From assembly GCA_017651625.1 (NCBI GenBank), contig JAGCCP010000055.1, forward strand, positions 124,001 through 188,000: 64,000 bases of DNA. Direction: 5' to 3'. Both the position numbers and the translations under genes were made by a program. The stretch comes from Candidatus Ruminimicrobiellum bubulum (GTDB taxonomy: Bacteria > Elusimicrobiota > Endomicrobiia > Endomicrobiales > Endomicrobiaceae). Position 1 is the first letter of the stretch, and each line of letters opens with the position of its first letter. The notes under the pieces are model-generated. The model worked only from the letters and a program-made list of their open reading frames with translations. It was not told the DNA's origin and did no database searches. Shown here in pieces: positions 10,015 to 33,418 of the stretch.

Positions 10015-12936
10015 ATGAAAAACAAAATAAATAATTTTTACCAAATAATAAAAGATTCTTTATTTAAATATCTCGTATACTTAATAATTATATGCTTATT
10101 GGCACATTTAAATGAGGATATTAGAAATTTTGGTATTTGTTTAAAAGATAATAATCCTTATTTTTTAGCTGCATGTTTGATTATGTTGTTGTTATTAATT
10201 ATCGTTCCGTATACAAGAACAAAATATAAAAAATATATTGAAAAAATCTCAAAAGAAAATATTATTTATTCTATTTATATATTTTGGGCTTTTATCTTTT
10301 TTGAAAAAGAATATTTATTTGTAACTATATCTTTTGTAATGGTTATCTTTGTTTTTCCTTTTATCAGATGTTGCTTTTCTCAAAAAAAAGAAAATGAAAA
10401 ACTAGATAATATACAAACTTTAATATATTTGGATGAACCAATAAAAACAAAAGAACAGGATTCTTTAGGAAGAGATAATTTTATTAAAGCTATTAGGAAT
10501 ATATTATTGAAAAATCAAATATCTAATAAAAAAAATGGATTTGTTTTAATTTTATCTGCAAGTTGGGGAGAAGGAAAAACAAGTTGTCTTAATTTGTTAA
10601 GAGAAGCTGTAAGTGAAAGTTCGGAAGCAAAAGGAACGAATTCTTTTGAATTTATTGATATAAATCCATGGTTCAATGATACTAAAGAAAAATTATTAAA
10701 TGCTCTTTTTGGTGAATTGAATCATTTTGCAAAACTAAATTTTCCTCATATTTCTTTAGAAAATCAGTTTGATGAAATAGTAAAACTTTCAAGTGTAAAA
10801 TTAGGTAATATAGAACTTGAATTAGATAAATTTACAGAAGATAAAAATATACAAAATAAAATAAAAGAAGTCGGAGAACAATTAAATAAATATTCGAGAA
10901 GAATAATAATTACTATTGATGATATTGATAGATTAGAAAAAAATCATATATTGTACATATTACAAGTAGTTCAGATGTTTAAAGAATATACTAATATAAT
11001 TTTTATATTGAGTTATGATCCTGTAAAATTAGAAGAAATTTTATGTGAAAGTTCTGATTCTTGTTATACTGATAAAGCAATTTATAAAAGTTCATGTTAC
11101 AGAAATTATATTGAAAAAATAGCATCGGTTACAACACCACTTCCTAAAATAGAAAAAATTCACATGGAAAATATGTTATTTAAAGAAATAAATAATATTT
11201 TAGTAGAAGAAGAAATGCCAACAATAAAAAGAATTGATTTTGATTTTTATATTTCAACATCAAGGTTTAAAACCATTAGAGATATTAAAAGATTTTGTAA
11301 CACATTCTTGATATCTTATGCAGAAGTGAAAAATGAAGTTAATGTTTTTAATTATATTAATATAACTATATTATTTGTCTTTTATTCAGAAATTTATAAT
11401 GAAGCATGGATTGATCAAAATCAGTGGTTTAAATCAAAAATAAATGTTCATGATAATAAACAGGTAAGTTCAATAAGACAGTATTTTCAAAATATTATAG
11501 ATAAATACAAAGATGAAGATATTAAAAATATATATGAGTTAATAGAAGTAATCAGTCCTGTGTATCAACAAATTCCAGCAGAAGAAAATAAAAACTATCT
11601 AAAACAATCCAATAAAGGAGATAAAAGTTATTTTTTAGATGAAAGATATTTACAATATTATTTTACACATGATTTTTCAAAAAGCAGAATACCAGATAAA
11701 GTTTTAGATGAAAACTTGCAAGATTTTTTGAATGAAAAAAATGATGAAATAAGAGAACAAAATATATTGAGTTTTATGAAAAAATATAATTCTAAACTTG
11801 TAGATTTATTTAATTATCTCAATATTTATTATAAAGAAGAATATTTGAATTTAATTCAACAGATAATATTAATTTTTGCAAAAAACTCTTTTGATTTATT
11901 GAAAGATTTCTCTGATATTATAGAATATATTTCTAAAATAATATCAATATTTACAAAATATCAAGCTACAAGTGTCAATGATTTTTTGATAGAAATAATA
12001 AAAGATTCTTCATCAGTCTCTTTTTCTATAGAACTTTATGAAAAGTTGAACTATAACTATGATGGATTGTTAAATAATACTAATATAAATAATATTTTAG
12101 ATGATAAAATTTCAAGTAATATAAAAAAATCTTTAGAAAGTTTTAAATATGAGCAATGTACAAGATTCTTATATTTTTGGTTACAAAAATATTATGTTAC
12201 TAAAAAAGTAGATATTGTTGATATTGTTGATTCAAGACCGGAAGATTATATATTAACAAGGAATAAAGTAAAAAGCATATTACCTTTTATTAAAGATGAA
12301 GTTGAATATTTTATGGCATTTATCGGTAAAGATTTAGAACATGCAATTAAAAGTTATAGAGATAATAATTTTATAGGTTTAAATAATATTTCTTTTAGCA
12401 ATTTTATTTTTTTTATTGATATATGGGGAAAAAATAATATTTTAGATATGTTAACTAATTTTCTAGATAATGATAACGGGAAAAACTATTATGATAGAAT
12501 TAATAATTTAATTGTATTGTATAAAATGGTATTGAAAGATAAAAAAATTGCAAATAAGGTTAAAGAGCACGAAATAAAAATGTTTCATAAGATAGGTTTT
12601 TATGATTTAATAAGAAATATAGATATATATGAATTTGATACTGAAAAATTTTTTAATAATTTTAAATTTGATTATTCTTATAAATATAAAGATAAAAGAT
12701 TTTTTGTTGAAATTAGAGTAGCTAATAGAAATATCGAAAGTTCTCGTATAAAAGACTTACTTGTTAAATTAAGTAATAATGAAATTATTTATTTTTATTA
12801 TATTGTTGAAAGTAAAGATGAAAAAGAGAAATTAGAAAGAGAAATAAATGAATTTATATCAAATATAAATACAAGTGATAAAAATAAATTTGGGTATAGA
12901 GTAGAAATAAAAAAAGATTTGTTAGAGAAGTATTAA
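10015..12936 (+). CDS. KAP-family P-loop NTPase with membrane helices
   Basis: A 973-residue protein. The first 120 residues contain about four membrane helices, then a KAP NTPase domain. The Walker A is SWGEGKTS (about 183-190) and the Walker B region is IITIDDIDRL (about 298-307), followed by FILSYDP, a typical KAP sensor-like strand. The C-terminal 500 residues are helical, charged and unrecognised. KAP NTPases are membrane-tethered ATPases, and the family includes the F-plasmid phage-exclusion protein PifA. The gene follows the ATPase by 9 bp with no clear ribosome-binding site, so coupled translation is likely. The pair is very A+T-rich and has no link to polysaccharide chemistry. Confidence 0.8.
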   Translation: MKNKINNFYQIIKDSLFKYLVYLIIICLLAHLNEDIRNFGICLKDNNPYFLAACLIMLLLLIIVPYTRTKYKKYIEKISKENIIYSIYIFWAFIFFEKEYLFVTISFVMVIFVFPFIRCCFSQKKENEKLDNIQTLIYLDEPIKTKEQDSLGRDNFIKAIRNILLKNQISNKKNGFVLILSASWGEGKTSCLNLLREAVSESSEAKGTNSFEFIDINPWFNDTKEKLLNALFGELNHFAKLNFPHISLENQFDEIVKLSSVKLGNIELELDKFTEDKNIQNKIKEVGEQLNKYSRRIIITIDDIDRLEKNHILYILQVVQMFKEYTNIIFILSYDPVKLEEILCESSDSCYTDKAIYKSSCYRNYIEKIASVTTPLPKIEKIHMENMLFKEINNILVEEEMPTIKRIDFDFYISTSRFKTIRDIKRFCNTFLISYAEVKNEVNVFNYINITILFVFYSEIYNEAWIDQNQWFKSKINVHDNKQVSSIRQYFQNIIDKYKDEDIKNIYELIEVISPVYQQIPAEENKNYLKQSNKGDKSYFLDERYLQYYFTHDFSKSRIPDKVLDENLQDFLNEKNDEIREQNILSFMKKYNSKLVDLFNYLNIYYKEEYLNLIQQIILIFAKNSFDLLKDFSDIIEYISKIISIFTKYQATSVNDFLIEIIKDSSSVSFSIELYEKLNYNYDGLLNNTNINNILDDKISSNIKKSLESFKYEQCTRFLYFWLQKYYVTKKVDIVDIVDSRPEDYILTRNKVKSILPFIKDEVEYFMAFIGKDLEHAIKSYRDNNFIGLNNISFSNFIFFIDIWGKNNILDMLTNFLDNDNGKNYYDRINNLIVLYKMVLKDKKIANKVKEHEIKMFHKIGFYDLIRNIDIYEFDTEKFFNNFKFDYSYKYKDKRFFVEIRVANRNIESSRIKDLLVKLSNNEIIYFYYIVESKDEKEKLEREINEFISNINTSDKNKFGYRVEIKKDLLEKY

Positions 12937-12971
12937 GTTTACAAAATTTATTAAGAATAAAAATTTATTAA

Positions 12972-13070
12972 CAAGCTTGGTTAGAAATATCAAGTTTATA
13001 TGCATTAGGAAAAGATAACAAAATAGAAGAAAAATTTGTAAAAACAGTTTTGAATAAGAATTATGAGTAA
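12972..13070 (+). pseudogene. Possible 3' remnant of a lost gene
   Basis: Between KAP and wzy, one frame reads 32 codons without a start, from AWLEISSLYA to a TAA at 13068. Its amino-acid composition looks protein-like rather than repeat-derived. It may be the tail of a gene deleted when the ATPase/KAP pair inserted. I do not recognise the family; chance is a real alternative. Confidence 0.25.
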
Positions 13071-13102
13071 TAATTGTTTTTTATGGATTTTAAGGTAATT
13101 AT

Positions 13103-14320
13103 ATGGTAGCGATTTTTATAAATTTAATATCAATTGCTTTTTCTATATGGGTTGTTTACCATTATTTAAAAAAAGAGAATAATATCATAATTTATTTCTT
13201 TTTACTCTCTCTCTTTTTTGTAATAATCCCTATTTTTGTGGATTCTATTGGAATAAACTTTTTAGGACAAAATTATATACAAATAATATTAAATAATAAT
13301 TCTGAAATGTACAATATAAATTTTTTAGATTCAGAAATCAATCTTAAATTCACATTGTTCGTATTTGGATTTAATTTATTGCTTTTTTTATCATATAAAC
13401 TATTTACATATAAGTTAGATGGTTGTAAATATAGTATAAAAAAACAATCTTTCTATTCATCTTTTGTTTATATCTTGTTAGGTCTATTTTCTGTAATACT
13501 ATTTTTTATTCATAAAAATATAGATGTATTTAATTCTATAACTATAATTTTATTTAATTTTTTTTCTATAGGATATGTAATAGGAATTGTTCCAATTTTG
13601 AGAAAAAAATGTTATTTTCAATTTATAATTTTATTTTTACCAACCTTATTTTTTGCACTGACAACTGGAAGTAGAGCATTGTTTGTATCATTTTTTTTAA
13701 TTTTTTTCTATTCTTTATTGGATGATTTTGAAAAAAACAAACATGTTTTATTAAGAGCAATATATATTGTTGGACTAATATTAATTTTGATACCATTATT
13801 TAACTCTTTTAGAAAGGGTTCTTTATCTTTAAGTTATCCGTTTTGGAGAGATGTTTGTGTTGGTGATGGTTATTTTGCTTTTGCAGGTACATTTTATCAT
13901 CAATTTGCTAATGGTATAATTCGTCTCATACAAACAGGTCTTCCATATATTTCAGAATCAATGAATTATTATGATATTACAAAACAACTTGCAGATGAAA
14001 GATTTTTTATTGGTTGGGGGTCAATACATCCAACAGCATATGGTTGGCTTTTTATAGATTTACAATGGTACGGAATTTTAACAGCAATCTATTTTGCATT
14101 GTTTATATCTTTCATAGAATATATTAAATATTTTTTCAGAAAATACAAAATAGTATCAATGTTAATTGCATTTGAGTTAGTATTCCTTATAATATTTATA
14201 AGAGGCTCTGTTCAATATGCATATTCTACTGTTATTTATCCTATAATTATTATATTTTTATTAGTTTTATTATATTCTTTTTGTAATAGTAAGATAATAA
14301 AGACTAAATTTAAAAATTAA
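13103..14320 (+). CDS. Oligosaccharide repeat-unit polymerase (Wzy-like)
   Basis: A 405-residue protein with about 10-12 predicted membrane helices and few recognisable motifs, as is normal for Wzy polymerases. A long hydrophilic loop lies at about 235-310, between helix clusters, and matches the large periplasmic loop typical of these enzymes. It is followed by the flippase gene, which supports a Wzx/Wzy pathway. The call rests on topology and position rather than on catalytic residues; an exopolysaccharide-related membrane protein of another type remains possible. Confidence 0.7.
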   Translation: MVAIFINLISIAFSIWVVYHYLKKENNIIIYFFLLSLFFVIIPIFVDSIGINFLGQNYIQIILNNNSEMYNINFLDSEINLKFTLFVFGFNLLLFLSYKLFTYKLDGCKYSIKKQSFYSSFVYILLGLFSVILFFIHKNIDVFNSITIILFNFFSIGYVIGIVPILRKKCYFQFIILFLPTLFFALTTGSRALFVSFFLIFFYSLLDDFEKNKHVLLRAIYIVGLILILIPLFNSFRKGSLSLSYPFWRDVCVGDGYFAFAGTFYHQFANGIIRLIQTGLPYISESMNYYDITKQLADERFFIGWGSIHPTAYGWLFIDLQWYGILTAIYFALFISFIEYIKYFFRKYKIVSMLIAFELVFLIIFIRGSVQYAYSTVIYPIIIIFLLVLLYSFCNSKIIKTKFKN

Positions 14321-14337
14321 AAATATTTTACAATACT

Positions 14338-15672
14338 ATGTTTAAAACAAAAATAAGTTATTTAAAACAAACAATAAAATCTGCATTAGTAAAAAGAATT
14401 TCTAATGCAGCAAAATGGTCTTTTATAGGTGCAATTTGTCAAAATGCTTTAATGTTATTAATAGGTATAGTATGTATTCATATACTTGGTAAAGAAACTT
14501 TTGGTAAATTGGGAATTATAAGATCTACAATACAAATTTTTATAGTTTTAGGCGCTGTAGGTATGGGCTCTACAGCTACAAAATTTATTGCTGAATTTCG
14601 TAGTAAAGATTTAAATAATCTTAAAAGTATATATTCTATTGTAAATATAATAAGTTTTTGTACAGGATTAATTTCGTTACTATTTGTTTTGTTATTAGCT
14701 CCTAAAATTGCTGTTTATTTGAAAGATTATTCTTTAACATCTTCTATTAGAATAGGTGGGTTATTATTATTTTTTACAATTATAAATTCAGTTCAAAATG
14801 GAATTCTTTCGGGTTTAGAACAATTTAAACAAATTGCTTTAAATACAATAATAGGTTCAATAGCAGAATTTATATGTATTATTTTAGGTGCTTACTTTTT
14901 CTCTTTATATGGTGCATTATTAGGTTATGGAATTGGTTTTATAGTTTTATCTTTATTAAACCATATTTCTGTAAGAAAAAATTTAAAATCATTAGATGTT
15001 AAATTTTCTTTTAATACTGTTCATTTAAAACTACTAAAAAAATTGATTTTTTTTAGTATTCCTTTAATGTTTTCAAGTTTATTGGTTGCACCTGTAATGT
15101 GGTTTGCTCAATCTATAGTAGCTCGTTCTACTAATTTTTCGGAAATTGCTATTTACTCTGTAGCCGATCAATGGAGAATGGTATTGCTTTTTGTTCCAAG
15201 TGCATTATCTCGTATAGTATTGCCAATTTTATCTAATCTTTATTCAGATAACAATATGATATCTTATTTAAAAGCTTTGAAATACAATATAATTTTAAAT
15301 ATGTCTACTACAATTATATCTTTTATTGGGTTATTGCTATTTTCTTCTTTTTTATTAAAGCTATATGGATTAGAAAAGATAGCAATATATCCGATGTTAA
15401 TACTTGGAGCATCAACTATATTTGCATCAATTGGAAATGTTGTAGGGCAAGCTATAATAAGTAGGGCAAAAACATGGATAGGCTTTTTATTTAATTTATT
15501 ATGGGGAATAATGATAATATTATTTACTATTTTATTTTTAAATTTCTTTACAGGCTCACAATCTTTGGCATTAGCAGTTTTGTCTTCTTATATTTTACAT
15601 ACAATATTTCAATCAATATATTTTTATTATATAACTAAAAATATAAATACTAAACAAGAGGTAAAAGCATGA
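14338..15672 (+). CDS. Polysaccharide flippase (Wzx/RfbX-like, MATE-superfamily)
   Basis: A 444-residue protein with about 12-14 membrane helices. It starts with the family-typical WSFIGAICQNALMLLIG and has GKETFGKLGIIRSTIQ near residues 55-70. These proteins move undecaprenyl-linked repeat units across the inner membrane. The gene overlaps the next glycosyltransferase by 4 nt, so the two are co-translated. The length and helix number fit the family. Confidence 0.9.
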   Translation: MFKTKISYLKQTIKSALVKRISNAAKWSFIGAICQNALMLLIGIVCIHILGKETFGKLGIIRSTIQIFIVLGAVGMGSTATKFIAEFRSKDLNNLKSIYSIVNIISFCTGLISLLFVLLLAPKIAVYLKDYSLTSSIRIGGLLLFFTIINSVQNGILSGLEQFKQIALNTIIGSIAEFICIILGAYFFSLYGALLGYGIGFIVLSLLNHISVRKNLKSLDVKFSFNTVHLKLLKKLIFFSIPLMFSSLLVAPVMWFAQSIVARSTNFSEIAIYSVADQWRMVLLFVPSALSRIVLPILSNLYSDNNMISYLKALKYNIILNMSTTIISFIGLLLFSSFLLKLYGLEKIAIYPMLILGASTIFASIGNVVGQAIISRAKTWIGFLFNLLWGIMIILFTILFLNFFTGSQSLALAVLSSYILHTIFQSIYFYYITKNINTKQEVKA

Positions 15673-26084: not shown

Positions 26085-26870
26085 TTATTTTTCTACTTTT
26101 GTCATTTTGTTATTTATGTTATTCAATTTTAGTTCAATGTTTGAAAGTTTATTGTTTATATCTTCGTTGTTATAAATAATAGCATCTTGTATCTTTGAAA
26201 AATTTTCATCAATATTTTCAATTGCAATAGCATTTTTTACATTAACAACTTTGTCTTTTGTAGGATGTAAAAAAAATGTAACTATAGATAGTGAAATTAA
26301 AACTGCAATCAAATAAAAAGCCCAACGCATATAGTTTCGAGCTATATTTAAATTGTTTAGTTTTCTGTTATTAGTTTTTTCATTTGCATATATGCCATAT
26401 ATTAGGTTTTCTATTTCTTCTTCTAAAAAACTCTCAATACTGCTAAATTGTTTAGTGTTTTCAGGTGAGGGATAACTATAATTAAATTTTGTAGCATCAT
26501 AATTTTTATAAATAAAATATATGGACATAATATAAAGAAATATTAGAACAATAGTTAATATAGTAAAAGTGATTATAACCAGTTTGTTTGTGTTTTCTGA
26601 AAAAAACTCTATCAAAAATGTTAGGATTAAGCAGGAAATAGAAAGTATTATTCCTAAATGAGACATCATAACTGAAGAACGTTCATCAATAGAATTTTTC
26701 CTTTTTTCTTCGTAATCAAAAAGATTTCTTAAAAAAGATACTCGATATTTTAAGTCCTCAACTTTTTTGTTTCCATAGCTTTTTTCATATTTATGCTGAA
26801 TATTAAAAGTTTCTTCCTTTAAAGTACTACAAATTATTAAGTTTTTGATAAAAGAGATTAGTTTTTTCAT
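26085..26870 (-). CDS. Three-TM protein with SLATT-like hairpin and coiled-coil tail
   Basis: A 261-residue membrane protein. Helices lie at about 70-89, 97-121 and 183-201. The first is preceded by YEEKRKNSIDERSS, an ERxxxID-type amphipathic lead-in reminiscent of SLATT and related two-TM effectors of nucleotide-signal defence systems. The C-terminal 50 residues form a coiled coil (NIELKLNNINNKM). It overlaps the ATP-grasp gene by 4 nt and is the last gene of the run that starts with the CD-NTase. It could be a pore-forming effector, a graspetide exporter or immunity protein, or a receptor. The SLATT assignment is by eye and weak. Confidence 0.55.
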   Translation of the reverse strand: MKKLISFIKNLIICSTLKEETFNIQHKYEKSYGNKKVEDLKYRVSFLRNLFDYEEKRKNSIDERSSVMMSHLGIILSISCLILTFLIEFFSENTNKLVIITFTILTIVLIFLYIMSIYFIYKNYDATKFNYSYPSPENTKQFSSIESFLEEEIENLIYGIYANEKTNNRKLNNLNIARNYMRWAFYLIAVLISLSIVTFFLHPTKDKVVNVKNAIAIENIDENFSKIQDAIIYNNEDINNKLSNIELKLNNINNKMTKVEK

Positions 26871-27784
26871 ATTAAGTATTTTATTATTGCATCAGAAATT
26901 TGTAATCCTGTTTGTGCTTCTATCCAAGCCCATTGTCCATTGGGATTAATTTCCAAGAATATGTATTCTCCTTTTTTTGTTTTTATTAAATCTATTGCTC
27001 CAAATTTTAAATTAAGTTTCTTTACTAGGCTGATACATTTAAATTCTATAGTTTTAGGTAAATCTATTTTATAAAATTGTAAGTTTTTTCTTCGCCAATC
27101 ATTTTTTGTATCTTTATCTTTTTGGGAATATATTGCTGCTGCAAAAACTTTATTATTTACTACCGTCACTCTAATTTCGTATTTTTTTGTAATGTTTTGT
27201 TGATAAATACAAGGTGTTAGATCATATGAATCTATATTAGATATAATATTAAAAGGTACTTTGTTGGTAAAAAGGAACTTAGTACCTTCACAATAATCTA
27301 TCTTTGAATAAGAGAAAGGTTTTACTATTATATTATTGTTGTAAGTTTTAATAAATTTTTTTAGTTCTTCATGAGAGTTCGTTACCAAAGTTGCAGGAAT
27401 TTTGAAACCTATCTTCAATGCTTCTTGTAATTGTAAAAGTTTGTTTTCAGCTCGATAAACATAATTTGGATGGCTCAACCATTTTTTTACCGGTAACGAG
27501 GATATCATATTCTTTATCAAGTAATCTGTTTCATTTAAAACGTAAATTTTTTCTTCTTTTCTTAAATTTGATATTTCAGGTAATTTTGTTCGCCTAAACC
27601 AAACGGATTGATATTTCGTTTCCCCTAATATTGAGTAGGAATAGGCATTATTAAAATTTAAAGAACAATCGTTTTTTAATATGTCTTCGCAATTAAATCG
27701 TTTATATTTAATTTTTTGTTTGTTTAATTTATTAATAACAAAATCTACAGTGAAATCTGTTTTGTGTGTAATAATTAGAATCAT
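26867..27784 (-). CDS. ATP-grasp peptide ligase (graspetide/microviridin-type maturase)
   Basis: A 305-residue MvdC/MvdD-like enzyme that forms omega-ester or omega-amide crosslinks between Thr/Ser/Lys and Asp/Glu side chains of a precursor peptide. The N-terminus ILIITHKTDFTVDFV and WFRR (62-65) are typical of this branch. The ATP-grasp fold has IIVKPFSY and ends with the Mg-binding EINPNGQWAWIE (278-289). It lies 8 bp after a precursor gene with a matching leader. A RimK-like glutamate ligase is the alternative, but the QWAWIE ending and the neighbour argue for a graspetide ligase. Confidence 0.9.
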   Translation of the reverse strand: MILIITHKTDFTVDFVINKLNKQKIKYKRFNCEDILKNDCSLNFNNAYSYSILGETKYQSVWFRRTKLPEISNLRKEEKIYVLNETDYLIKNMISSLPVKKWLSHPNYVYRAENKLLQLQEALKIGFKIPATLVTNSHEELKKFIKTYNNNIIVKPFSYSKIDYCEGTKFLFTNKVPFNIISNIDSYDLTPCIYQQNITKKYEIRVTVVNNKVFAAAIYSQKDKDTKNDWRRKNLQFYKIDLPKTIEFKCISLVKKLNLKFGAIDLIKTKKGEYIFLEINPNGQWAWIEAQTGLQISDAIIKYLI

Positions 27785-27792
27785 CTTTACTC

Positions 27793-28140
27793 TTAATCTA
27801 TATCTGAATTTTCAGATGTTGCCGTTTTTGTCATAGTTCCCATTAGAAAAACGATATTCTCATCATTTTTATCCGAATCCGAATCTTCTTTACAAACATC
27901 TGTAACTGTTCTTGTTTGAGTGGCCATTAAAAAATTAATATTTTCATTGTTTTTATCTGAATCAGAATCTTCTTTACATACATTAGTAACTGTTCTTGTT
28001 GAAAGCATTAAACTATTAATAGCGGGCTTTCCTGTTTTTTTATCTATACTCAAATTTAAATCGTTATCATATCCTATCATAGAAAAATCATAGTTTTCTT
28101 CATTCCTTTTTTCAAGAAACTCAAATATTAAAGGTTTCAT
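27793..28140 (-). CDS. Three-core graspetide precursor peptide
   Basis: A 115-residue peptide. The leader starts MKPLIFEFLEKR, close to the PFFARFLE recognition helix that microviridin ligases bind. The C-terminal half has three repeats with a 28-residue period: TRTVTNVCKEDSDSD (48-62), TRTVTDVCKEDSDSD (76-90), and a shorter TKTATSENSDID (104-115). Each pairs a TxTxT donor patch with an acidic acceptor patch, as expected for ester-linked graspetides. The first two cores also hold a Cys (55, 83). A strong AGGGGGAA ribosome-binding site precedes the ATG. Its own promoter is possible (TATAAT in the 82-bp gap). Confidence 0.85.
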   Translation of the reverse strand: MKPLIFEFLEKRNEENYDFSMIGYDNDLNLSIDKKTGKPAINSLMLSTRTVTNVCKEDSDSDKNNENINFLMATQTRTVTDVCKEDSDSDKNDENIVFLMGTMTKTATSENSDID

Positions 28141-28222: not shown

Positions 28223-28708
28223 TTATATGTGATTTTTTGTTTTCATAAATTTTATAATTTGTGAATCTTTAACTACATTTAAACTATATTGCCAACCCGT
28301 ATCGTTATTCCCTCCAATAATTAACAATATTGGTTCTGGACAATGAACATCTTTGTTTTTAGATATTTCTTTCATTTGTTTTATATCTATAAAGCTTGGT
28401 TCCGGAGAAGAGTTAGGGTGATAATGCCATTCACCTAAATAATATTTTTTACTTTTCCAAAATTTATCTATCACTGTTTCTAATCCCAATATTCCTCTAT
28501 AGAAAGTATACATTTCTCTTTTAGAATCTTTAGGTGCTTTTATATAGTCAGATATAATAGCAATTTTTCCATTGCTTAAATATTTACCTATTAAAATTCC
28601 ACCGGTTTCATAGTTTTTTGATTTAGTACATTCTGCTTGAATATTCTTAATTATACTACTATGGATTTCTATTACTATATCAAATTCACTTTTATAAACA
28701 TAATTCAT
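28223..28708 (-). CDS. cap3: CBASS JAMM/JAB isopeptidase (Cap3)
   Basis: A 161-residue JAB/MPN metalloprotease. The full JAMM set is visible: Glu34 in ETGGILIG, and HYHPNSSPEPSFID with His95, His97, Ser105 and Asp108. In type II CBASS, Cap3 removes the CD-NTase from its conjugates and so reverses priming by Cap2. The gene starts just after the Cap2 stop. The alternative, a generic prokaryotic JAB peptidase, is unlikely given the Cap2 and CD-NTase neighbours. Confidence 0.92.
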   Translation of the reverse strand: MNYVYKSEFDIVIEIHSSIIKNIQAECTKSKNYETGGILIGKYLSNGKIAIISDYIKAPKDSKREMYTFYRGILGLETVIDKFWKSKKYYLGEWHYHPNSSPEPSFIDIKQMKEISKNKDVHCPEPILLIIGGNNDTGWQYSLNVVKDSQIIKFMKTKNHI

Positions 28709-28709
28709 A

Positions 28710-30503
28710 TTAAATTTTATTTACCTCTTTATAGTGATATGTAAATCCATCTTTGTTTTTTTGATACACAATAGACAATTCACTTTTATTACCTAATATA
28801 CATTGCTCAAAGAAATTGAATGCCGTACATGAGGTAAGCCAAATATCGTCAATTCTTGCTGGAAATATTGGATGCCAACAACCAAAACCTTCTCGTAAAT
28901 TGTTATATTTTTGGAGCTCTTCATCCGATTTTATATAATTTTTTATTAGATTTTTAAAATTGTAGAAATTAAATTTATTTTTATTGTGAAAAGATAGAAA
29001 TAAATATTCTGCATCAATACCAATAGAAATTGATAAAAGAGAAGTTTCTTTCATCAATGTTGAATTTTCTATAACTTGAAGGACTTCGTTAGAACCACTA
29101 CATTCTAGTATAACATCAAAATCGTTAAAATTAAAACCACTTGAAATTAGTTTATTTAAAGATTTTACTTTTGCATGAGGGGATAATTTATTTAATCTTA
29201 AAGCCAAATTATCTGCTTTTGAAGAACTAATATCATCTATATTTAAAGTGTGTCTTGAAAGATTGCCAAACGTTAATGTATCGTTATCTATTATAGTGAT
29301 ATCTTGTGCTCCAGCTCTAATCAATAATTCGGAAAAGGTTGATCCTATACAACCTGCTCCTATTAATAAAAATTTTTTGTTTATTATATTTATATCCAAT
29401 TTGCCTCTAACTGAGATTTCATTTGGATTTAAATTTTGAGATTTTATCCAACATAAATTTCTATTAGGAGTCAATATATTTTGTTTGTCATAATATATAA
29501 GTTTATTATGTCTAAATCCTCTTGCACTTTTTCTCGTACTTAAAATAGGTAGTTTAATTGCTTGCCAGAAAATTTTTTCATTTTTACTACTAATTTTTTT
29601 AGGTATAGGAAAGCCAACCAGTAATAAATTTTGTTGCCTATTTCTTATTTTTGTTTCATCTACTTGTTGCAAAAAATCAAATAAATCAATATTTTCTTCA
29701 TTAAATATTTTTTGAAGTTCTGATATGGTCATAGGAGCTTGCCATATATTTACCACAGGAGTTTTTTTTAGTTTTATCCATAAACCACATATTGTAGATA
29801 TTTCTAAATTATTAAAAAGTTCTCCCCAATTACAAACAAAGAGTTCATTATTTTTCAAATCTGTAAATTTTCGTAAAACATAAATGTTCTGTGTATTTTT
29901 TTTGTTTTTATCATAAATACTTAAATAGGCATATCCTCTGTTTTGTGTGATAGTATTCCATTTCATAAAAGAAAGATTGTCTTCATTAAAAACGAAAATA
30001 TCAGTATTATATTTTTCAAAAAAATCAGGTAGTTCAAAAAAATCATTTTTTTGAACTAAGGAATTTTTAGATGCTTGGATAATCCATTCTATTGCTCTTT
30101 TTACATACCAATATAACTTGTAATTAGGGTTTTTATAATATTTTTCTTCACTGCTTTTTTCTTTTATTCCAGATATATCAAGACACAACTTGCCACATCT
30201 CCATAGATTATTATATGTATAAAAATTACAAGATTGATGTTGCAAAGTAAATGTTAAACTATTAGTTATGGATGGATAAATTTCTATGTTTGATAGTGGA
30301 TACTCTTCTCCTGTGACTATGTACCAATTAGAAATGTTTGGGATAATATCGCTATTTAAATTTAAAGAAATTTGTATTTTAAGATACCAATTATCTCTTC
30401 CTTTATCATATTCCCAATTATTCACTGTTTTTACACTGTTTATTTCGTCTAGTGTTCTACGAGCTCTTCTTAAATTTTCTGGTATTATACGTTTCTCTAT
30501 CAT
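28710..30503 (-). CDS. cap2: CBASS E2-E1 fusion ligase (Cap2)
   Basis: A 597-residue fusion. The N-terminal E2-like domain (about 1-160) has a candidate catalytic Cys107 in GKLCLDISG. A linker is followed by a ThiF/E1 adenylation domain from about 375 with GAGCIGS and DNDTLTFGNLSRH. A candidate E1 cysteine is in LTSCTAFNFF near the C-terminus. In type II CBASS, Cap2 links the CD-NTase C-terminus to target molecules and so boosts second-messenger synthesis during infection. The ATG overlaps the CD-NTase stop by 4 nt. Length fits the family. Confidence 0.92.
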   Translation of the reverse strand: MIEKRIIPENLRRARRTLDEINSVKTVNNWEYDKGRDNWYLKIQISLNLNSDIIPNISNWYIVTGEEYPLSNIEIYPSITNSLTFTLQHQSCNFYTYNNLWRCGKLCLDISGIKEKSSEEKYYKNPNYKLYWYVKRAIEWIIQASKNSLVQKNDFFELPDFFEKYNTDIFVFNEDNLSFMKWNTITQNRGYAYLSIYDKNKKNTQNIYVLRKFTDLKNNELFVCNWGELFNNLEISTICGLWIKLKKTPVVNIWQAPMTISELQKIFNEENIDLFDFLQQVDETKIRNRQQNLLLVGFPIPKKISSKNEKIFWQAIKLPILSTRKSARGFRHNKLIYYDKQNILTPNRNLCWIKSQNLNPNEISVRGKLDINIINKKFLLIGAGCIGSTFSELLIRAGAQDITIIDNDTLTFGNLSRHTLNIDDISSSKADNLALRLNKLSPHAKVKSLNKLISSGFNFNDFDVILECSGSNEVLQVIENSTLMKETSLLSISIGIDAEYLFLSFHNKNKFNFYNFKNLIKNYIKSDEELQKYNNLREGFGCWHPIFPARIDDIWLTSCTAFNFFEQCILGNKSELSIVYQKNKDGFTYHYKEVNKI

Positions 30504-31555
30504 GCAAAACGACTCTTTGGAATGTTGATTGATTTTTCTTTTCGTTCTGAAAAACTATTGGAATTATTGTTTTTATCTTCTGCTTTGGGGAATTTATTCC
30601 CAAAGAGTTCTCTCCATTTAGTTACACTATAAATAATATCATTAGATTCAAAAGCTTCTTTTGCTATATTTGCGGCTTCTTGTACTTTTTTATAAAATTG
30701 TTCATATTCTTTCGTTGTTATTCTAGCAAAGACATCATGTTCTGGAACACCATGATCCGGTAAAAAAGGTTTTGCCTTATGGTTAGAAACGATATTTTCC
30801 AACACAACCTTTACACCTTCTGCTATACTTGTAATGTTGTTAGGACAACAAAACCCAATAAAATGTTCTAAAGGATAACTTTTAGGATATTTTATATGTG
30901 CACATTTCTCTCTCTTCCACCATTTTAATGCTTTTACAACATTTACATATAATTTGTTTGTATCAGAATTTTTTTTAGAAGTCCATTCTATTTGCTTAAG
31001 AGGATGAGTTTTATCCCATATCTTTGCTTCCCTGTCCGGTATATATAGAGGTTCATTTTTCCATCGTTTACTAAACTCCTCGTTAAAAAATATATTATCT
31101 TTGCTATCGGTAGCTATATAATTAAAATCAATTGTAGAAAAATTTCGTAGTAGATTAATTTGTTGCTCATTCGGAGCAGATGTAGGTACTAAGTCTAATT
31201 TTATTTTATTGAACTCTATACAGATTGATCTTCCTTGTTTTTTATATCTGTTCTCATAGTAAGTATCTAAGAAAGGAATAAATTTATTAAAAACATTTTC
31301 AGGTGAATTTATATCTTTATTTAAGTTTGTGACAATGACAACATCGACATCAGCTTTTGAATTTTCTTCAGGTTTTACTGCAGTATATCTTCTATAACTA
31401 CCCTGTAAAAAAGTATTTACTATTATATCTTTTAAACCTTCAAAATTTTTTAACTTTTCTCTTACATCTATATGTGCTTTCTTTAATTCTTCAACTTGTG
31501 AGTCAGTTAATCTAATCTCTTCTAAAAAATCTTCAAAATAACTTTTAACTTCCAT
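30500..31555 (-). CDS. CD-NTase (cGAS/DncV-like nucleotidyltransferase), CBASS
   Basis: A 351-residue SMODS-type nucleotidyltransferase. The activation site is complete: GS (52-53) in FLQGSYRR, the metal-binding pair Asp69 and Asp71 in ADVDVVIV, and Asp121 in IKLDLVPT. It makes a cyclic oligonucleotide alarm signal; the product cannot be read from sequence. The flexible tail ends in KSRFA. A small C-terminal residue is what Cap2 is expected to conjugate. The AGGAGAA site lies before the ATG. It is the first gene of a minus-strand run and is divergent from the 31660 gene. Confidence 0.93.
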   Translation of the reverse strand: MEVKSYFEDFLEEIRLTDSQVEELKKAHIDVREKLKNFEGLKDIIVNTFLQGSYRRYTAVKPEENSKADVDVVIVTNLNKDINSPENVFNKFIPFLDTYYENRYKKQGRSICIEFNKIKLDLVPTSAPNEQQINLLRNFSTIDFNYIATDSKDNIFFNEEFSKRWKNEPLYIPDREAKIWDKTHPLKQIEWTSKKNSDTNKLYVNVVKALKWWKREKCAHIKYPKSYPLEHFIGFCCPNNITSIAEGVKVVLENIVSNHKAKPFLPDHGVPEHDVFARITTKEYEQFYKKVQEAANIAKEAFESNDIIYSVTKWRELFGNKFPKAEDKNNNSNSFSERKEKSINIPKSRFA

Positions 31556-31659: not shown

Positions 31660-32166
31660 ATGAGTGAATATAGTATTATGGATTTTATAAAATTTATGCT
31701 TACTGCATTCGAGAATCACTTTATTGATATTCTTTTGTCTGCTGTTGTTTCTCTTTTTATGATTTCTATTGGAATTTTTTGTGGCTGGATAAAATTTCAA
31801 CTTAATTTAAAGAAACCATTGTTTTTATTTGAGTTTGACTCAGATAATTTAAAAAGGGTAGAAGAAGTTTTGAAAGATAGAAAATTTAAAATATCTAATA
31901 GAAGTAAAGACTTAACAAGTCTTGATGATTTTAAGAAAAAACATTCAATATTGATTGTTGGTTATTCTAATAATAATTCTGCTAAATTAGAAAAAGCAGT
32001 AAACAGAGCAATGTTATTAAAATTACCTATTATTATATTTTGTAATAGCAATTGCAGAATTAGTGATAATGATATGAATATTATTCTTTCATATACATAT
32101 TATGAAATTTGTACCAACCCATTAAGATTGATTTTAACAATTAGAAATATTTGTCAAAATTATTGA
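31660..32166 (+). CDS. Membrane-anchored Rossmann/TIR-like domain protein, candidate CBASS partner
   Basis: A 168-residue protein. One membrane helix (about 22-43) is followed by a soluble alpha/beta domain (53-168). Strands FLFEF, HSILIVGYS and PIIIFCN alternate with helices, an arrangement seen in TIR, SLOG and nucleoside-deoxyribosyltransferase-like folds. I do not recognise the family, and no clear NADase glutamate is identifiable. It is divergent from the CD-NTase and shares its promoter region, which suggests a receptor, effector or regulator of the CBASS. A chance neighbour is also possible. Confidence 0.5.
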   Translation: MSEYSIMDFIKFMLTAFENHFIDILLSAVVSLFMISIGIFCGWIKFQLNLKKPLFLFEFDSDNLKRVEEVLKDRKFKISNRSKDLTSLDDFKKKHSILIVGYSNNNSAKLEKAVNRAMLLKLPIIIFCNSNCRISDNDMNIILSYTYYEICTNPLRLILTIRNICQNY

Positions 32167-32743: not shown

Positions 32744-32772
32744 ATTATAATTAATCTACCTTGAAAAGTCAA
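32744..32772 (-). promoter_or_regulatory. Near-consensus promoter of hairpin RNA copy 1
   Basis: Minus strand: -35 TTGACT (32772-32767), 17-bp spacer, -10 TATAAT (32749-32744). The -35 lies inside the last codons of the tRNase gene, so the RNA is transcribed independently of the toxin gene. Confidence 0.75.
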
Positions 32773-33163
32773 TAAAAATAGTAGAATTTTTCTTTATTAT
32801 TATGATATTTTTTATCTTTTTAATTTTTACAAATTTTTCTTTTATTTGAGAAATAGCTCTTGTTTCATCTATCTTTATTCTTCTCAAGTCAATAATAATA
32901 TTTTTAGATTGTCTTAAAGCACATCTTAAATTATTTTCAATCGTCCTGCTACTGCTACCTTTAGGAGATTTTATTTCCCAAAACAAACCATCCATTTTTA
33001 TATCCGGTGTTCTTGTGTTTTTAATATCTAACGGAATTAAAAATTCAACATTTTTGCCATATTTATTTAAAATTTTGGCAATTTCTATTTCATGATCTTC
33101 CGGATGTGCTCCAAAAGGGATTATTGTTTTTCCAAAAACGTTCTCTATATTATCGGTACTCAT
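32756..33163 (-). CDS. Stand-alone CdiA-CT-type tRNA nuclease-like protein
   Basis: A 135-residue protein resembling the tRNA-nuclease domain found at the C-terminus of some CdiA contact-dependent toxins (PD-(D/E)xK fold). Key features are FGAHPEDHEIEIAK (17-30), then TPDIKMDGLFWEIKSPKG with Asp54, Glu63 and Lys65 as the likely catalytic set, and QSKNIIIDLRR (85-95). It has no secretion or export sequence and no adjacent protein immunity gene, so it may act inside the cell, with the twin RNAs downstream as candidate controllers. A non-toxic RNA-processing role is possible. Confidence 0.75.
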   Translation of the reverse strand: MSTDNIENVFGKTIIPFGAHPEDHEIEIAKILNKYGKNVEFLIPLDIKNTRTPDIKMDGLFWEIKSPKGSSSRTIENNLRCALRQSKNIIIDLRRIKIDETRAISQIKEKFVKIKKIKNIIIIKKNSTIFIDFSR

Positions 33164-33224: not shown

Positions 33225-33418
33225 TGAAAATCGCAAGGCGATTTTGGAAGATTGGAGGATTGGAAGATTAGAAGATTGGGAACGGCCAACGACAAACGGC
33301 AAACGGCGATGGATTGCCGCACTTCGCTCACAATGACAAACAACCACCAACCACCACCCACAAACCATATTTAATTTAGTATAATAAATCCAACACAAAA
33401 TATAACTTAAGGGTTTAT
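33225..33418. repeat. Mosaic repeat tract upstream of a glycosyltransferase gene
   Basis: It contains a 3-nt-loop palindrome at 33227-33245 (stem AAAATCGC, loop AAG), GGAAGATTGGAGGATTGG tract (about 33246-33280), AACGGCAAACGGC words, and a GTCAT-family palindrome in reverse at 33312-33337 (the CACTTCGCTCACAATGAC type). A TATAAT lies at about 33380. No gene is visible. Confidence 0.7.

Follow-up and report, generated by a model that had tools for sequence, protein, structure and literature searches.

A thuringinin-class graspetide triad with a PycTM-like membrane protein downstream of a type II CBASS operon in Candidatus Ruminimicrobiellum bubulum

Locus organization

A 64,000-nucleotide stretch of Candidatus Ruminimicrobiellum bubulum (Elusimicrobiota; GenBank assembly GCA_017651625.1, contig JAGCCP010000055.1, positions 124,001–188,000 of the forward strand) was analyzed and is called the window below. 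It encodes a predicted graspetide precursor as the fourth of six genes on one strand, in the order cyclase, Cap2, Cap3, precursor, ligase and membrane protein. Features are given in window coordinates; those of the cores were computed from the open reading frame (ORF).

26085–26870, minus: membrane protein, 261 aa, remote PycTM homologue by profile comparison
26867–27784, minus: ATP-grasp ligase, 305 aa, MvdC/MvdD-like with a pre-ATP-grasp domain
27793–28140, minus: predicted graspetide precursor, 115 aa; leader MKPLIFEFLEKR, conserved linker (LNLS....PAI) and three cores
27796–27837, minus: core 3, TMTKTATSENSDID, residues 102–115, at the C-terminus, a class-typical last core
27871–27915, minus: core 2, TRTVTDVCKEDSDSD, residues 76–90
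27955–27999, minus: core 1, TRTVTNVCKEDSDSD, residues 48–62
28223–28708, minus: Cap3-like JAB isopeptidase of CBASS (PADLOC JAB, E = 2e-54)
28710–30503, minus: Cap2-like E1-E2 protein of CBASS (PADLOC E1-E2, E = 2.8e-173)
30500–31555, minus: CD-NTase (SMODS), CdnD type (PADLOC cyclase, 5e-135)
31660–32166, plus: divergent single-TM (1TM) protein with an alpha/beta C-terminus (PADLOC C3a59, 1.3e-6; 1TM effector, 3.5e-4)

The cyclase, E1-E2 and JAB genes follow the canonical order of type II CBASS and form a complete core. Among solved structures, the CD-NTase is closest to CdnD-type cyclic AMP-AMP-GMP synthases, and no relatives of it were found in viral contigs. The cyclase gene shares 4 nt with cap2, a single nucleotide separates cap2 from cap3, and cap3 lies 82 bp ahead of the precursor. 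Promoter and terminator matches in this gap were not above chance. The precursor and ligase genes are separated by 8 bp, and the ligase and membrane-protein genes overlap by 4 nt. This gene anatomy is near certain.

Unlike typical type II systems, the operon has no Cap4/NucC-type effector; the divergent 1TM gene lies upstream and the graspetide triad (precursor, ligase, membrane protein) downstream. The 1TM protein, on its PADLOC matches, is a candidate CBASS effector of an uncommon kind. Its structural model is of low confidence (pLDDT 60), and searches of 290 genomes from the phylum and of viral contigs detected no relatives. The CBASS region is adjoined by an orphan 135-aa ORF (32756–33163, minus) that matches the CdiA C-terminal domain PF18451 (3.6e-17), possibly a stray module for contact-dependent inhibition.

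Precursor and cores

The precursor ORF has an ATG start preceded by the ribosome-binding site AGGGGG. Cores 1 and 2 read TRTVT[N/D]VCKEDSDSD and start at residues 48 and 76; core 3 starts at residue 102. A preliminary description of this DNA had recognized three Thr/Glu/Asp cores with a 28-residue period, and these were confirmed. The pattern T.T.{3,6}E..D.D has three distinct core ends in the real precursor. When residues 45–115 were shuffled in 20,000 trials, 19,862 gave no core, 138 gave one and none gave at least two. The assignment as a graspetide precursor was also upheld: the ORF lies just ahead of an MvdC/MvdD-like ligase, and the pair, with matching leader and core, is kept in dozens of genomes.

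The leader motif PLIFEFLEKR (PLIFEF), earlier likened to the microviridin PFFARFLE recognition helix, agrees with the motif Phhx(1,2)h that Makarova 2022 (PMC8939145) gives for graspetide leaders in general. It resembles the leader-helix motif of microviridin-type precursors. The microviridin core TxKYPSD is missing from the ORF, as had been noted.

Cores 1 and 2 follow the pattern T-x-T-x-T-x4-E-x2-D-x-D, which nearly all close relatives in Bacteroidota share. Core 3 had been called divergent and shortened, which came from reading it two residues late, at TKT. Read from TMT, it is T-x-T-x5-E-x2-D-x-D, the form that many Bacteroidota relatives show in their last core, and is therefore neither divergent nor truncated. 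It does end at the C-terminus, as described. The Cys in each of the first two cores, previously singled out as unusual, is a local feature: relatives have no Cys at that position, and a role as a second modification site was rejected as a class feature.

The acidic repeats might instead be metal-binding loops of the D-x-D-x-D kind, holding calcium and carrying no ester bonds. Such runs resemble EF-hand or dockerin loops, and some relatives add N-G (DADTDKNG in locus L009). However, conservation of the Thr pairs and of the Glu, whose spacing is fixed, equals that of the Asp residues; the precursor always has a graspetide ligase beside it; and another branch carries E-x-D-D, which contains no such loop. 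We regard calcium binding as very improbable. The ORF is well supported as a graspetide precursor and falls in the multi-core class grouped with thuringinin; side-chain ester or amide rings are predicted from its ligase family.

Ligase

The ligase matches TIGR04187, TIGR04185 and TIGR04184 (E = 1e-58 to 1e-65; about 1e-64 for TIGR04187 and TIGR04185), at scores short of the NCBIfam equivalog cut-offs, and also PF21068. Residues D265, E278 and N280 are invariant and correspond to Mg-site positions of ATP-grasp enzymes. Solved microviridin-type ligases (5IG8, 5IG9, AMdnB 7M4S and CdnC 7MGV) align at E = 3e-39 to 5e-35. The locus thus has the ligase family in common with microviridin-type systems but differs in core, in having no peptidase and no ABC exporter, and in carrying NPNGQWAWIE where those ligases have NPGGEW.

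Relation to the thuringinin class

In thuringinin-class loci as given by Makarova 2022, a shared leader is followed by several tandem Thr/Glu/Asp cores, and a single MvdC/D-like ligase and an uncharacterized membrane protein are encoded next to the precursor; the locus here is laid out alike, with a membrane protein in the corresponding place. Multi-core precursors of this kind form cluster 13 of that work, grouped with thuringinin and Lee groups 3/5/6 (PMC8939145). The preliminary description had suggested a new core class. This was not upheld, since nearly all close relatives have the same core and the peptide falls in a described class; its chemistry would accordingly be of a known kind. 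Comparison with catalogued core groups, also suggested there, matched the class (thuringinin, Lee 3/5/6); no letter-for-letter counterpart of the core spacing was found among the Lee group 3/5/6 motifs as far as the available text gives them. Variant triads at three loci (L077, L088 and L092) have a single different core, T.SKT..PGDDDPD...CY, with unchanged ligase and membrane-protein layout. The core spacing of thuringinin itself presumably differs letter for letter from that of the window.

Membrane protein

No Pfam family covers the membrane protein, and the gathering score of PycTM (PF18967) was not reached. Its AlphaFold2 model has four long helices (mean pLDDT 86.7); a Foldseek search of this model against PDB and viral structures returned nothing at E = 0.001 or below. 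A PycTM profile was built from short PycTM proteins (PF18967; loci L122–L134) and compared using hhalign. The match spanned 152 columns at 96.4% probability and kept the conserved Lys motifs E-x-K and N..K...L..A...F both in register. Control values were 0.8% for the reversed profile, under 0.1% for column-shuffled profiles and 0.2–0.3% for unrelated membrane proteins. SLATT membership was rejected, as comparison with a SLATT_5 protein gave 0.5%. Given a match of this strength with controls under 1%, the protein is, on profile evidence, a remote PycTM-like homologue and not a formal PF18967 member. The common layout includes a two-helix membrane hairpin after E/D-x-K, and K..L..A...F before the last membrane helix. 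Unlike PycTM, the protein has an extra C-terminal helix and no Pfam-level match, and its partner is the graspetide pair and not a nucleotide cyclase. PycTM is the effector of a cyclic-nucleotide pathway (Pycsar).

The protein stands where thuringinin loci carry the thuringinin-specific membrane protein of cluster 18, to which it is likened by position. Makarova 2022 guessed that protein to be a transporter because no known exporter was present (PMC8939145).

Relatives and origin

Related loci were collected in a ligase-alignment scan with one genome per species. The best 80 of 520 relatives and 14 loci from viral contigs gave 94 loci. The triad is present in most of these 94, across several phyla. 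Nearly all thuringinin-like loci carry it, with the membrane segments of the third protein in the same places; nine more distant loci (L094–L102) have no membrane protein. Using tblastn, homologous precursors were found ahead of the ligase in nearly all of L009–L041. Two loci (L021 and L026) have two tandem precursor genes upstream of one ligase. Across 60 loci, protein distances correlate between ligase and membrane protein (r = 0.89), ligase and precursor (r = 0.84) and the third pair (0.83), against permutation maxima of 0.12–0.14. The triad is a conserved, co-evolving mobile unit. Prophage or phage copies occur in L003–L007 and Leptospira phage LE1; no precursor relatives were found in viral contigs.

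The window ligase groups in a Bacteroidota clade with L009 and L010 (support 97/81 with L009). Ribosomal protein S2 of the host is 42–44% identical to that of the Bacteroidota genomes hosting relatives, and 56–70% identical to that of other orders and families of its own phylum. The triad is absent from 149 relatives of the host, including all 10 same-genus genomes searched. Synteny with a close sister genome (G010) ends at window position 33409, and the defense region is missing in the sister. A Bacteroidota-nested ligase in a non-Bacteroidota host, absence in relatives and broken synteny show horizontal acquisition; the triad was acquired from Bacteroidota. Between about 5213 and 33409, the window holds about 28 kb of sugar and defense genes where the sister has about 3 kb. 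Right of the breakpoint identity is 91–94%, and the variable hotspot lies left of an rpsT-mviN-uvrC block.

Defense neighborhood

Searches using tblastn with the Cap2, Cap3 and cyclase of the window found none of them in the 94 related loci, with flanks up to 10 kb. CBASS is therefore not an obligate partner of the triad, and CBASS linkage as a general rule was rejected, the adjacency being seen in the present window only.

The triad could nevertheless be the effector arm of this particular CBASS, with the cyclase signal or Cap2 conjugation acting on the graspetide or membrane protein in place of the usual effector. It follows cap3 closely on the same strand, and PycTM is itself an effector of cyclic-nucleotide signaling. 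The operon also has no counterpart of the Cap4-like effector, assigned by inspection, that a Bacteroidota genome (L140) encodes ahead of its orthologous cyclase. We consider this arrangement improbable, since dozens of genomes carry triads whose flanks of up to 10 kb show no Cap2, Cap3 or cyclase, the divergent 1TM gene already matches CBASS effector models, and a promoter of the triad's own could fit in the gap before the precursor, although promoter matches there stay at chance level.

Other defense genes take the place of CBASS elsewhere. Genes directly upstream of triads on the same strand include AbiJ_NTD3, caspase, ThsA_Macro, CHAT (2) and EcoRI methylase, and further type III Mod and Res, HsdM, HsdR and MmeI; the HsdM gene stands last in an apparent type I operon. 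Proteins near the triads (133) matched 302 PADLOC families versus 81 matched by as many (133) distant proteins from these loci, counts that comprise redundant families and near proteins that are on average longer. Pfam matches of near neighbors include integrases, ThsB TIR, KAP, GmrSD and EcoRI, and those of far proteins are mostly housekeeping. A second near set added Gabija GajA/GajB, Wadjet JetA (2), DrmMI, DruM (DISARM/Druantia-type) and HsdR. A KAP NTPase operon precedes the triad in L017 and L022, and a GmrSD gene follows it in L021. At the CHAT-led triad locus L027, a large protein with a nuclease-like N-terminus and an NTPase (11599–15426) begins 11 bp past the membrane protein. Several plasmid copies of the triad sit among ordinary or mobile genes.

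A 168-aa protein is encoded 0–24 bp ahead of the precursor in Flavobacteriaceae (L014 9127–9633, L017 9112–9621, L022 9124–9630 and also L015). The L014 copy has no Pfam match, and in L017 and L022 the gene is placed behind the KAP NTPase. It is a possible dedicated triad partner.

Defense islands also gather bacteriocins, toxins and other cargo. The triad may then be an ordinary secreted thuringinin-class RiPP, a protease inhibitor or antibacterial, with the membrane protein as its exporter or immunity factor; such genes would ride defense islands because both are mobile. Integrases are indeed frequent neighbors (7 of 133 near proteins, 5 of 96 in the second near set), the published transporter guess points the same way, and the graspetides of known activity are, to our knowledge, protease inhibitors. 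However, no leader peptidase was recognized with the triad genes, and ABC exporters are essentially missing: across 80 loci, a single one among 1063 ORFs carries an ABC signature. A GG, GA or GS pair at residues 21–70 is present in only 27 of 78 precursors. The neighbors are largely defense genes and not general cargo. The PycTM likeness and the defense neighbors together speak for an effector over the transporter of Makarova 2022. Secretion appears rather unlikely on this evidence, and a defense role is preferred.

The preliminary description missed the more interesting part of the locus, namely the CBASS operon that precedes the triad, its PycTM-like third gene and its repeated placement in defense islands. 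What is new is this context; the peptide class is already described. The triad differs from described thuringinin loci in following CBASS, and the available text of Makarova 2022 (PMC8939145) makes no mention of a defense link for the class. In the open-licence literature searched, no publication joining a graspetide and CBASS was found, nor any precedent for the CBASS attachment, the PycTM relation or the recurrent defense-island placement. Among listed papers that mention both graspetides and phages, titles and abstracts report no defense link.

Proposed function

The recurrence of the triad beside many anti-phage systems suggests an unrecognized role in phage defense. We give about even chances to a defense module that pairs a cross-linked multi-core peptide with a PycTM-like membrane effector. 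The ORF would be the substrate of a self-contained three-gene unit of precursor, ATP-grasp ligase and PycTM-like membrane protein. The ligase would dock onto the leader helix and, by analogy with its family, close omega-ester (or amide) bonds from Thr to the acidic residues of E..D.D in each core. The modified peptide probably remains inside the cell, as no exporter or leader peptidase comes along. There it may control the membrane protein or sense for it, by restraint or activation, and the membrane protein would damage the membrane upon infection. The triad would be an abortive-infection-type module, a second and independent layer behind the primary system that it follows, here CBASS.

The broader proposal is more tentative, at somewhat under even chances: thuringinin-class triads would be an unrecognized, widespread anti-phage system in which the peptide restrains or triggers a PycTM-like effector, wired here behind a type II CBASS. 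As the unit is only about 2 kb, the defense hypothesis is directly testable. Graspetides are commonly viewed as secreted inhibitors or bacteriocins. If the triads do serve in phage defense, the unexplained membrane protein of thuringinin loci would gain a function, and ribosomal peptide modification would become part of bacterial immunity.
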